64,000 nucleotides of DNA from Hyphococcus sp. (GTDB lineage: Bacteria; Pseudomonadota; Alphaproteobacteria; Caulobacterales; Parvularculaceae), in NCBI GenBank assembly GCA_021776335.1, contig JAJFGB010000004.1:186001-250000 (forward strand), given 5' to 3'. The translations under genes and the position numbers were made by a program. Positions 2,438 through 30,400 of this stretch are shown in pieces; positions within the stretch are counted from its first letter, which is position 1, and each line of letters starts with the position of its first letter. The notes under the pieces were generated by a model. It did no database searches and was not told where the DNA came from. It was given only the letters and a program-made list of their open reading frames with translations.

Positions 2438-3337
2438 CTATTCCAAAAGTGCGCCGTCGGCAGCGACAGGTTTGCGAAACTTCAGCGTCATCCGGTCACT
2501 TTCACCGATGGCGTCGTAGGTTGAATGATCGAAATCTGGGTCTTCTGCGCCGCGTATTTCCGACTCGCGACGAACCGGCGGCAATGTCCAGACACCAAAC
2601 GGATGGTCCTTAGTGTCAGCCGCATTGGCGTTAATCTCTGATGACGCCTCAAAATCAAAGCCGGCCCCGTTCGCCAGTGCAATGACATCGGCTTCGTAGA
2701 GATAGCCTGATGACCCATTATCCGGCAGCTCGGCGCCATCGCCGCGATGGTCCACGACACCCAGTATGCCGCCGGGTTTGAGTGCACGGTAGAATTTCGC
2801 GAAATTTCCTTCAGCCCGGTCATGGGTTGTCCAGTTGTGGACATTGCGAAAAGTCAAAACTGCATCGGCCGATCCGGCGGGCGCGATGTCTTGTCCATCG
2901 CCGAGAACGGTCATTTCAACGTCGCCATAAAGCGCGGGCTTGCCCATATAGGTTTCCTCAAATCTTGCGATTGATCGAAGGGTGCGCTCGCTGGCGCCCT
3001 CGCGTGAAAACCCCGCTGCGTAATATTTGCCGTCGCCTGTTTTCAAATAGGGTGCAATCACTTGCGTATACCAGCCACCGCCCGGCCAGATTTCAACAAC
3101 GCTCATGCCAGGTTCGATATCAAAGAACAAAAGGGTTTCGCGTGGGCGGCGATATTGGTCCCGGGCGCGCTCTTCTTGCGTCCGGTGGGCGCCAGCGAGC
3201 GCGGCTGCCAACAGCGCACTGTTATTCGGCGTCGCGGCCTCGTCTGCGGCGGCCGGTCTGTCTGAAGCGGTGTCCCCTCCGCAAGACGACAGGGCTGTTG
3301 CGCCAATTAACGCCAATATTGCGAATCTGATTTTCAT
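2438..3337 (-). CDS. Secreted lipoprotein with class I SAM methyltransferase-like fold (copy A)
   Basis: I chose the start at 3337 because GGGAGCGAC lies just upstream and the product then begins with a lipoprotein signal (MKIRFAILALIGATALSSCGG); the longer frame would bury it. The mature 280 or so residues carry VVEIWPGGGWYT, corresponding to motif I of Rossmann methyltransferases, and ALKPGGILGVVDH, matching the post-motif region. It is paralogous to the pair at 59506-61105: all share EPGM/APGM, the aromatic-rich GGG loop, LKPGG and a C-terminal FRKP-like tail. An exported SAM enzyme is unexpected because SAM is cytoplasmic, so the fold may have another role. It is the first gene of the operon with the SCP2-like protein and hydrolase. 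Confidence 0.75.
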   Translation of the reverse strand: MKIRFAILALIGATALSSCGGDTASDRPAAADEAATPNNSALLAAALAGAHRTQEERARDQYRRPRETLLFFDIEPGMSVVEIWPGGGWYTQVIAPYLKTGDGKYYAAGFSREGASERTLRSIARFEETYMGKPALYGDVEMTVLGDGQDIAPAGSADAVLTFRNVHNWTTHDRAEGNFAKFYRALKPGGILGVVDHRGDGAELPDNGSSGYLYEADVIALANGAGFDFEASSEINANAADTKDHPFGVWTLPPVRRESEIRGAEDPDFDHSTYDAIGESDRMTLKFRKPVAADGALLE

Positions 3338-3490
3338 TATGTCGCTCCCGTCCGGTATCCCATCACTAGTGGGCGGCTTTGTATCACGCTTCTTCGCGCG
3401 GTCCATCGGCGGGTTTTTCACGATCCGCTTATGATTCTGGGTCTTGAAACCGAAAAATCCACGCCTAACTGAATGGGCGACGGAGGCCAT

Positions 3491-3570
3491 ACGGCTCCGT
3501 TCGCGCCTTTCCGGCCAAAGTGGCGGAGCCGGGCGTGATGTTAACCTCGCTTAATGAAGGAGGACTTCAA
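3491..3570 (+). promoter_or_regulatory. ROSE-like RNA thermometer in the hsp20 leader
   Basis: The leader can form two hairpins. The first pairs GGCTCCG (3493-3499) with CGGAGCC (3524-3530) around an internal helix. The second pairs CCTCGCTT (3545-3552) with the Shine-Dalgarno AAGGAGG (3557-3563) across an AATG loop, leaving G3549 bulged. A U(U/C)GCU strand with an unpaired G facing the SD is the hallmark of ROSE thermometers, which repress small heat-shock genes at low temperature in alphaproteobacteria and melt on heating. No probing data exist here; the call rests on pairing, motif and gene context. Confidence 0.7.
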
Positions 3571-4032
3571 ATGCGCACATTCGACTTAACTCCCCTATAT
3601 CGTTCGACGGTTGGATTTGACCGCGTTTTCGATCTGCTCGACACTGCGGGCAAGGCGGAAACCGGTGGTTATCCCCCCTATAATATTGAGCGTCTTGACG
3701 ATGATGATTACCGCATCACGCTGGCGGTTGCAGGTTTCAGCGACGCTGATATCGACGTCGAGATTCATGAAAATACGCTGACGATCACCGGATCGCGCCA
3801 GGACGCCGATGAGGGTCGTCAATTTCTACATCAAGGTATTGCGGGCCGCTCCTTTGAGCGCCGGTTCCAGCTTGCTGAACATGTGAAGGTCGCCGGCGCC
3901 TCGCTGGTCAATGGATTGCTCGATGTTGAGCTGAAACGTGAAATCCCTGAGGCTAAAAAGCCGCGCAAGATAGCCATAAATGGCGGCGATGCGACGAATA
4001 TCAAAGTGCTGAAAGGCGCTGACGCCGCATAA
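3571..4032 (+). CDS. Small heat-shock protein, Hsp20/IbpA class
   Basis: A 153-residue alpha-crystallin-type chaperone that binds unfolding proteins in the cytoplasm. The start at 3571 follows AAGGAGG by seven bases; the upstream in-frame codons are the regulatory leader. The crystallin domain runs from about residue 35 to 130: YNIERLDDDDYRITLAVAGF, ENTLTITG, and GLLDVELKREIPE, which contains the conserved G-x-L turn. Order and length match class A sHsps of rhizobia and relatives. A strong terminator follows, so it is probably monocistronic. Expression is predicted to be translationally temperature-controlled by the hairpin covering its ribosome binding site. Confidence 0.93.
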   Translation: MRTFDLTPLYRSTVGFDRVFDLLDTAGKAETGGYPPYNIERLDDDDYRITLAVAGFSDADIDVEIHENTLTITGSRQDADEGRQFLHQGIAGRSFERRFQLAEHVKVAGASLVNGLLDVELKREIPEAKKPRKIAINGGDATNIKVLKGADAA

Positions 4033-30190: not shown

Positions 30191-30196
30191 TAGCGC

Positions 30197-30400
30197 AACC
30201 CCATGCGGGAGAGACCTTGCTGACGCCAATGGCGAAGGTGAGGCGCCGAAGGAGCAACCGCCCCGGAAACTCTCAGGCAAAAGGACCGCAAGGGGGCGAG
30301 ACAGGCTGGAAAGCAGGCTGCGCAATCCGCGCCGCCTCACCGAAGGTGTAAGCGCGCATAGATTGCTCGTGAAATCTCTCAGGTTCCATGACAGCCGGGG
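30197..30400 (+). promoter_or_regulatory. Tandem glycine riboswitch
   Basis: Two consecutive glycine aptamers lie in the 355-bp leader of gcvT. The first spans about 30200-30295 with GCGGGAGAGACC, GCCGAAGGAGCAACCGCC and AAACTCTCAGGCAAAAGGACCGC-type core elements; the second spans about 30300-30398 with GGCTGGAAAGC, CACCGAAGGTGTAAGC and AAATCTCTCAGGTTCC. A short hairpin (30403-30417) follows before the start codon and may be part of the expression platform. Glycine binding would turn on the downstream glycine-cleavage operon. Confidence 0.93.

Follow-up and report, generated by a model that had tools for sequence, protein, structure and literature searches.

A probable ROSE-like RNA thermometer in the hsp20 leader of a marine member of the Parvularculaceae

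The 5' leader of hsp20, a small heat-shock protein (sHSP) gene in the 64,000-nucleotide stretch of DNA that we analysed (the window), is very probably a three-hairpin ROSE-like RNA thermometer whose Shine-Dalgarno (SD) helix opens at heat shock; we put this reading at roughly 0.92. The structural hallmarks that can be tested on sequence are present, which supports the preliminary description of this leader as a ROSE-like thermometer, and heat sensing itself is expected from the behavior of the family. ROSE is the best known class of RNA thermometer, and this reading would extend it to the Parvularculaceae.

The hsp20 gene and its leader

The hsp20 product carries an HSP20 domain (PF00011, profile match at E 2.5e-20), and its gene is the sole HSP20 match found in the 4.18-Mb genome to which the window belongs. 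E. coli IbpA aligned to it along all 137 residues (74/137 identical), and Tyr34 and Arg93 of E. coli IbpA fall at the same positions in the hsp20 protein. Its closest relative in the named collection comes from a Marinicaulis MAG (97% protein identity). Marinicaulis is currently placed in Hyphococcus, family Parvularculaceae (NCBI), and the host is a marine Marinicaulis/Hyphococcus-like bacterium of that family. The gene and the elements of its leader are as follows.

3443..3449, + strand: -35-like box CTTGAAA, part of a putative RpoH-type (heat-shock-sigma) promoter; TTGA(A/C) is conserved in a 39-leader alignment
3462..3469, + strand: -10-like box CGCCTAAC; many rows, but not every one, have a CCTA-type block 12-13 nt past the -35 box
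3479..3501, + strand: hairpin I, GACGGAG-G-CC-AUAC-GG-CUCCGUU, a 7-bp stem with bulged G3486, two closing C-G pairs and an AUAC loop (folding, conservation, covariation)
3509..3528, + strand: hairpin II core, UUCCG-G-CC-AAAGU-GG-CGGAG, which repeats the motif of hairpin I and lies in a longer predicted stem at about 3501-3538 (folding, motif count)
3545..3552, + strand: anti-SD CCUC-G-CUU with bulged G3549, including the ROSE signature UCGCU at 3547-3551 (sequence, conservation, folding)
3557..3563, + strand: Shine-Dalgarno AAGGAGG, paired to the anti-SD (sequence, conservation, folding)
3571..4032, + strand: hsp20, ibpA-type small heat-shock protein of 153 aa (HSP20 domain, alignment to E. 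coli IbpA)

The 39 Parvularculaceae leaders of the promoter alignment were grouped by protein similarity, and two of them (L048, L050) are named only as Alphaproteobacteria. We take the TTGA(A/C) and CCTA-type boxes at 3443-3469 to be RpoH-type promoter elements, and transcription of hsp20 would then start at about 3475-3480. The span first proposed for the thermometer, 3491-3570, contains the SD hairpin, but its left edge falls short, since 3491 lies inside the loop of hairpin I; the leader reaches back over hairpins II and I to the promoter. A preceding hairpin had also been claimed and is indeed there, except that two hairpins rather than one lie 5' of the SD hairpin.

A divergent ORF at 2438-3490 likely starts at about 3336, at a lipoprotein-like MKIRFAILALIG, which makes overlap with the hsp20 leader improbable; its methyltransferase match is slightly under the Pfam cut-off. 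Elsewhere in the window there is an ordinary glycine riboswitch aptamer (RF00504, 67.9 bits) at 30196-30298, followed, by eye, by another aptamer-like stretch at about 30323-30400. The genes from 30440 onward, 3' of the riboswitch, are presumably gcvT-gcvH-gcvP.

The SD hairpin is built as the preliminary description had it: AAGGAGG can pair with exactly one bulged G, and the U(U/C)GCU signature is present. The seven pairs are C3545-G3563, C3546-G3562, U3547-A3561, C3548-G3560, C3550-G3559, U3551-A3558 and U3552-A3557; they enclose an AAUG loop, G3549 is the single bulge, and the start codon, ATG at 3571, is outside the helix. According to the definition that we used (from the available text of PMC3669281 and PMC11182007), a ROSE-like element lies in the 5' untranslated region of an sHSP gene, uses U(U/C)GCU to pair imperfectly with the SD in its 3'-proximal hairpin, carries a bulged G in this motif, comprises two to four hairpins and conceals the SD in the cold while exposing it at heat-shock temperature. 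The hsp20 leader runs up to the ATG of a gene with an HSP20 domain, pairs its UCGCU with the SD around G3549 and has three predicted hairpins. Covariation supports hairpins I and III; for hairpin II, the evidence is the prediction and the motif count. An sHSP leader is the classical setting for ROSE, although ROSE-like and ROSE-G elements have since been described for ABC transporter genes (PMC11342760 and PMC12857270, available text).

Conservation, covariation and model searches

We collected 144 loci of relatives, placed the start in 138 and obtained 120 distinct leaders; L138-L141 and L143 gave no match and L142 no start. One leader, L144, was left out because its start is not orthologous, leaving 119. 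In 118 of these 119 leaders (the exception being L079), U(U/C)GCU lay no more than 48 nt upstream of the start. Local minimum-energy folding gave exactly one bulged G in 105 of the 118 and not in the other 13. A second alphaproteobacterial sample was drawn from 142 genomes, 93 of which had a match at E <= 1e-25; we took one leader from each of the 68 at the top of the list and dropped L192 for its short upstream sequence. The resulting 67 leaders, from 65 genera, are largely independent of the first sample (L171 repeats L081). The signature was present in 63 of the 67 and missing from 4, and a single bulge was found in 56 of the 63, with 7 lacking it. We also searched 114 gammaproteobacterial genomes, of which 14 had an sHSP match at E <= 1e-20; U(U/C)GCU was present in 14/14 leaders of this sample, one of which repeats L107.

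A strong SD could find a complement by chance, and TYGCT is not a rare word (1320 of 23600 mononucleotide-shuffled 48-mers contain it). However, a U(U/C)GCU hairpin with a single bulged G precedes only 1 of 89 SD-preceded candidate starts in the window, that of hsp20 at 3571, the candidates being ATG or GTG codons that follow an SD-like word in any of the 194 stop-to-stop frames with a minimum length of 100 codons. The hairpin is moreover conserved in relatives across two classes, and chance complementarity is thus a very improbable account.

The two arms of the hairpin also change together. We compared 103 distinct hairpins, excluding duplicates and five leaders with a longer distance between motif and start. 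With their own arms, an average of 6.73 of 8 positions were paired, compared to 6.08 with swapped arms, and none of 500 permutations reached the value for own arms; relatedness was left in this comparison. Control values were 5.00 of 8 with shuffled right arms and 6.25 with the arm slid by +1. Mean hairpin energy was -6.23 kcal/mol with own arms and -4.87 kcal/mol with swapped arms. With the G held unpaired, the pair 3 nt 5' of it was A-U in 45 of the 103 hairpins, C-G in 40, G-C in 10, G-U in 4, U-A in 1 and absent in 3. By the terms of the preliminary description, relatives without the bulged G and the covarying stem would have counted against it; these data show no such loss, with the arms covarying in the wide set.

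We also built an alignment of 22 leaders (A2) with a two-hairpin structure. In A2, 96.9% of 352 cells were paired, compared to 36 to 59% in slid versions, and the covariation score was 0.246 against a shuffled mean of 0.128 (0/500 as high). Four of the five pairs that changed on both sides are in hairpin I; the covariation in A2 is mainly owed to that hairpin, and we do not cite it for the SD arms. The SD helix is near-invariant among 21 Marinicaulis-like leaders, and its covariation therefore stems from the wider set.

The pairing would be incidental if this stretch were coding, with hsp20 starting upstream at GTG3520 or ATG3538, and the frame is indeed open from 3520. This is most improbable, as the spacing between U(U/C)GCU and the start codon ranges from 19 to 43 nt in steps that are not threes, the protein start MR(T/S/N)(F/Y)DL is kept in most rows and the hairpin arms covary. 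In five Pseudovibrio leaders (L066, L078, L080, L100, L108), where U(U/C)GCU is 43 nt 5' of the start, an additional hairpin, about 20 nt long, is seen by eye to separate the motif from the SD, and the ROSE loop would thus seem to form a hairpin of its own.

A scan with the Rfam ROSE models had been proposed as a check, and it did not recover the leader: RF00435 (ROSE) had no match in the window, nor, under stricter Infernal filters, any with E up to 10 in the genome to which the window belongs, and RF01832 (ROSE_2) had none in that genome at E up to 10. The leader is below the gathering score of both models (45 bits for RF00435, 65 bits for RF01832), and we therefore file it as ROSE-like by the published definition and not as an RF00435 match. 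Across 60 genomes of the order, RF00435 gave 13 matches in 8/60 genomes, with 1/60 above the cut-off, and 0/14 control genomes had a match (stricter filters). Five of the 13 were on sHSP leaders: G053:C44:1025 (55.7 bits), G028 (30), G010 (23.7), G006 (18.2) and G043 (16.9). Among the loci of 20 relatives (13 of them Parvularculaceae), the only match at the gathering score was a Methylobacterium leader (L071, 57 bits). Because RF00435 matches just 1 of these 20 loci and exceeds its cut-off in 1 of the 60 genomes, ROSE is probably undercounted in genome annotation. RF01832 had no match above the cut-off in the 60 genomes and 33 weak ones, 5 of them on sHSP leaders (G037, G010, G006, G003, G011).

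Genome G053 has five RF00435 matches (67.7, 55.7, 30.2, 26.1 and 17.8 bits), one of which adjoins an sHSP match. Two matches in this genome, L154 and L155, have a real motif ahead of starts.

We then searched with R1, a covariance model made from A2 (22 leaders, 16 pairs). In the window's genome, R1 gave one strong match (E 2.8e-16, strong by construction), and the next were at E 3.8 and 9.2. The match at E 3.8 was considered as a second ROSE and rejected; no ORF of more than 30 codons starts inside it or within 150 nt downstream. The 60 genomes, which are the window's genome and 59 relatives and of which 57 have an sHSP match, yielded 29 R1 matches at E <= 7e-4, and 29/29 adjoin an sHSP match. 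Ten of the 29 are outside A2 (G003, G004, G006, G009, G014, G019, G020, G027, G033, G035), of which G006 and G020 are near copies of A2 rows. All 29 are in Parvularculaceae, and the best match in other families (24 genomes of the order) was at 0.004, on the sHSP leader of G037; strong matches being confined to the window's family, R1 is a family-level model. Of 25 weaker R1 matches at E 7e-4 to 1, three are on sHSP leaders (G037:C5, G045:C6, G041:C1). As candidates on non-sHSP genes, we inspected four of the other 22 (L148-L151) and two weak RF01832 matches (L152, L153); these six had by eye no U(U/C)GCU-SD pairing before a start, and we took them as chance.

Proposed mechanism and folding across temperatures

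The following sequence of events is the one that we favor. A heat-shock-type promoter, to judge from its boxes, would make the hsp20 mRNA. At growth temperature, hairpin III would pair the SD with the UCGCU anti-SD, a pairing that conservation and covariation support, and would thereby block the ribosome. The single bulged G would weaken this helix, which by analogy with the family would open at heat-shock temperature and allow translation to start. The two upstream hairpins, I and II, are stable and would probably stay folded on heating; they have a conserved bulged-G motif of their own. In the ibpA leaders of Pseudomonas, melting affects the 3' hairpin but not hairpin I (PMC3669281, available text). 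The same text reports that deleting G39 of P. aeruginosa ibpA, which we take to be the motif G, cuts induction from 6.4-fold to 1.4-fold.

Folding in silico from 20 to 50°C showed no sharp opening of the hsp20 SD, and the result depended on the assumed 5' end. When the leader was folded from 3475 or 3477 to 3582, the SD was mostly paired, with a mean openness of 0.14 to 0.23 from 20 to 50°C. When it was folded from 3479-3481, a competing hairpin brought openness to 0.36 to 0.48 throughout the temperature range.

3555..3569, + strand: competing hairpin UGAAG-GAGGA-CUUCA, which would leave GAGGA in its loop; this exact sequence occurs in 2/120 leaders

Folding 3477-3570 gave an openness that rose from 0.17 to 0.34 on heating. 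With coding sequence included (3477-3600), the ROSE helix was disfavored at 20-30°C and openness fell from 0.54 to 0.27 on heating, which is the wrong direction. Six relatives were folded as well; in five the SD was mostly closed, and in L025 it was open (0.68 at 25°C). The leader of E. coli ibpA, a validated thermometer, had in the same program a mean SD openness of 0.49 at 25°C, 0.36 at 42°C and 0.32 at 50°C. It showed no melting, so folding of this kind cannot tell a thermometer. The comparison at 25 and 42°C that had been proposed as a check thus gave a divided answer: according to the assumed 5' end, both temperatures leave the hsp20 SD mostly paired or both leave it nearly half open, and the same program gives E. 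coli ibpA no switch. An SD left open in the cold had also been named as evidence against the thermometer, and how open it was at low temperature likewise varied with the assumed ends.

These results bear on whether the hairpin merely sets a low basal rate of translation, with no temperature switch. In favor of such a lock, melting in silico is not sharp, and the isolated helix is stable (-8.4 kcal/mol at 25°C, -5.4 at 42°C and -3.9 at 50°C) because it has seven Watson-Crick pairs and no U-G wobble. However, the lack of computed melting is shared by the validated E. coli ibpA thermometer, and the bulged G is kept despite wide sequence change. By computation, removing this G stabilizes the helix by 3.5 to 4.1 kcal/mol, and a mere lock would therefore have no need of the bulge; the effect of the P. 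aeruginosa G39 deletion on induction (PMC3669281, available text) likewise argues for a switch. We therefore regard the basal-rate explanation as unlikely and prefer heat opening of the SD helix.

The 5' hairpin motif and comparison with known ROSE systems

Hairpins I and II share a motif that is distinct from the SD pairing: a bulged G, two C-G pairs and a loop of 4-6 nt, carried by a stem of 6 or more pairs. It was first noticed in Parvularculaceae leaders with loops of 4-5, was widened to 4-6 and was afterwards counted in the second sample. At least one copy upstream of the SD hairpin was found in 34/41 Parvularculaceae leaders (6/2050 shuffles), in 11/25 other leaders of the order (7/1250 shuffles) and in 13/53 remaining leaders of the first sample, a mixed group (23/2650 shuffles). 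Its usual place is hairpin I, and some rows have it in hairpin II. When all 64 combinations of bulge and closing pairs were scored on the 119 leaders, G with CC/GG was best with 58, G with GC/GC second with 26 and the third had 3; we think that the second score comes from the same hairpins in a shifted register, GGCC/GGC.

In the second sample, 40/67 leaders had the motif, compared to 15/3350 dinucleotide shuffles and 4/1380 tiles of the same loci, and the next best of the 64 combinations reached 4/67. The 40 hairpins have 38 different stems. Counting stems of at least 4 pairs, two or more copies are present in 21/41 Parvularculaceae leaders, that of the window included. The motif was less widespread in the gammaproteobacterial sample, where 2/14 leaders had it, and in the mixed group of the first sample. 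A G-CU...AG variant, seen by eye in two gammaproteobacterial leaders (L227, L240) and in L102, was left out of the counts.

What the 5' hairpins of ROSE elements do is described as not fully understood in PMC3669281, whose available text makes no mention of the hairpin I motif. The motif provides a concrete handle on their role. One speculative possibility, which we consider doubtful, is that the motif hairpin is a second, separately conserved ROSE module on a freely varying stem, serving as a specific binding site, most simply for the sHSP, so that melting and feedback repression by IbpA would act on one leader. According to the available text of PMC10474464, E. coli IbpA represses itself through the 5' leader of its own mRNA; the same text describes Tyr34 and Arg93 as well conserved among alphaproteobacteria.

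The class had been introduced as a temperature-sensing leader of rhizobial genes, a scope that is too narrow: ROSE is known in alpha- and gammaproteobacteria, Caulobacter crescentus included (PMC4166951 and PMC3669281, available text). The suggestion that an instance in this lineage may be undescribed fared better. A literature search for ROSE or RNA thermometers in Parvularculaceae or Marinicaulis found none among the matches listed, and the Parvularculaceae instance is therefore likely undescribed, yet expected.

Compared to RF00435, the rhizobial hspA type, the hsp20 leader is alike in its place ahead of an sHSP gene, its U(U/C)GCU facing the SD and its bulged G. The RF00435 consensus line also has the same layout of hairpin I (6 bp, bulged G, CC/GG and a 4-nt loop), so that the shape of the motif is implicit in Rfam. 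The 3' helix of hsp20, however, is short (7 pairs) and ends before the start codon, whereas the RF00435 consensus helix continues past the SD, and hsp20 has C-G rather than U-G at the second motif position. With the short ROSE-like elements of Pseudomonas ibpA (PMC3669281, available text), the leader would share a short thermosensing hairpin and a heat-shock-sigma promoter, and it has like them a start codon outside the helix and a stable GC-rich hairpin I, but those elements have two hairpins and three are predicted here. E. coli ibpA ROSE precedes a gene for a homologous protein and carries the hairpin I motif (AGGACGC-G-CC-TGAT-GG-GTGTTCT), and it differs in the sequence of its motif-SD helix, the SD being AGGAG in E. 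coli. Finally, ROSE-G (PMC12857270, available text) likewise has an anti-SD with a bulged G; unlike hsp20, it has CUGCU and a further bulged G on the facing SD strand, and it was described for ABC transporter genes.
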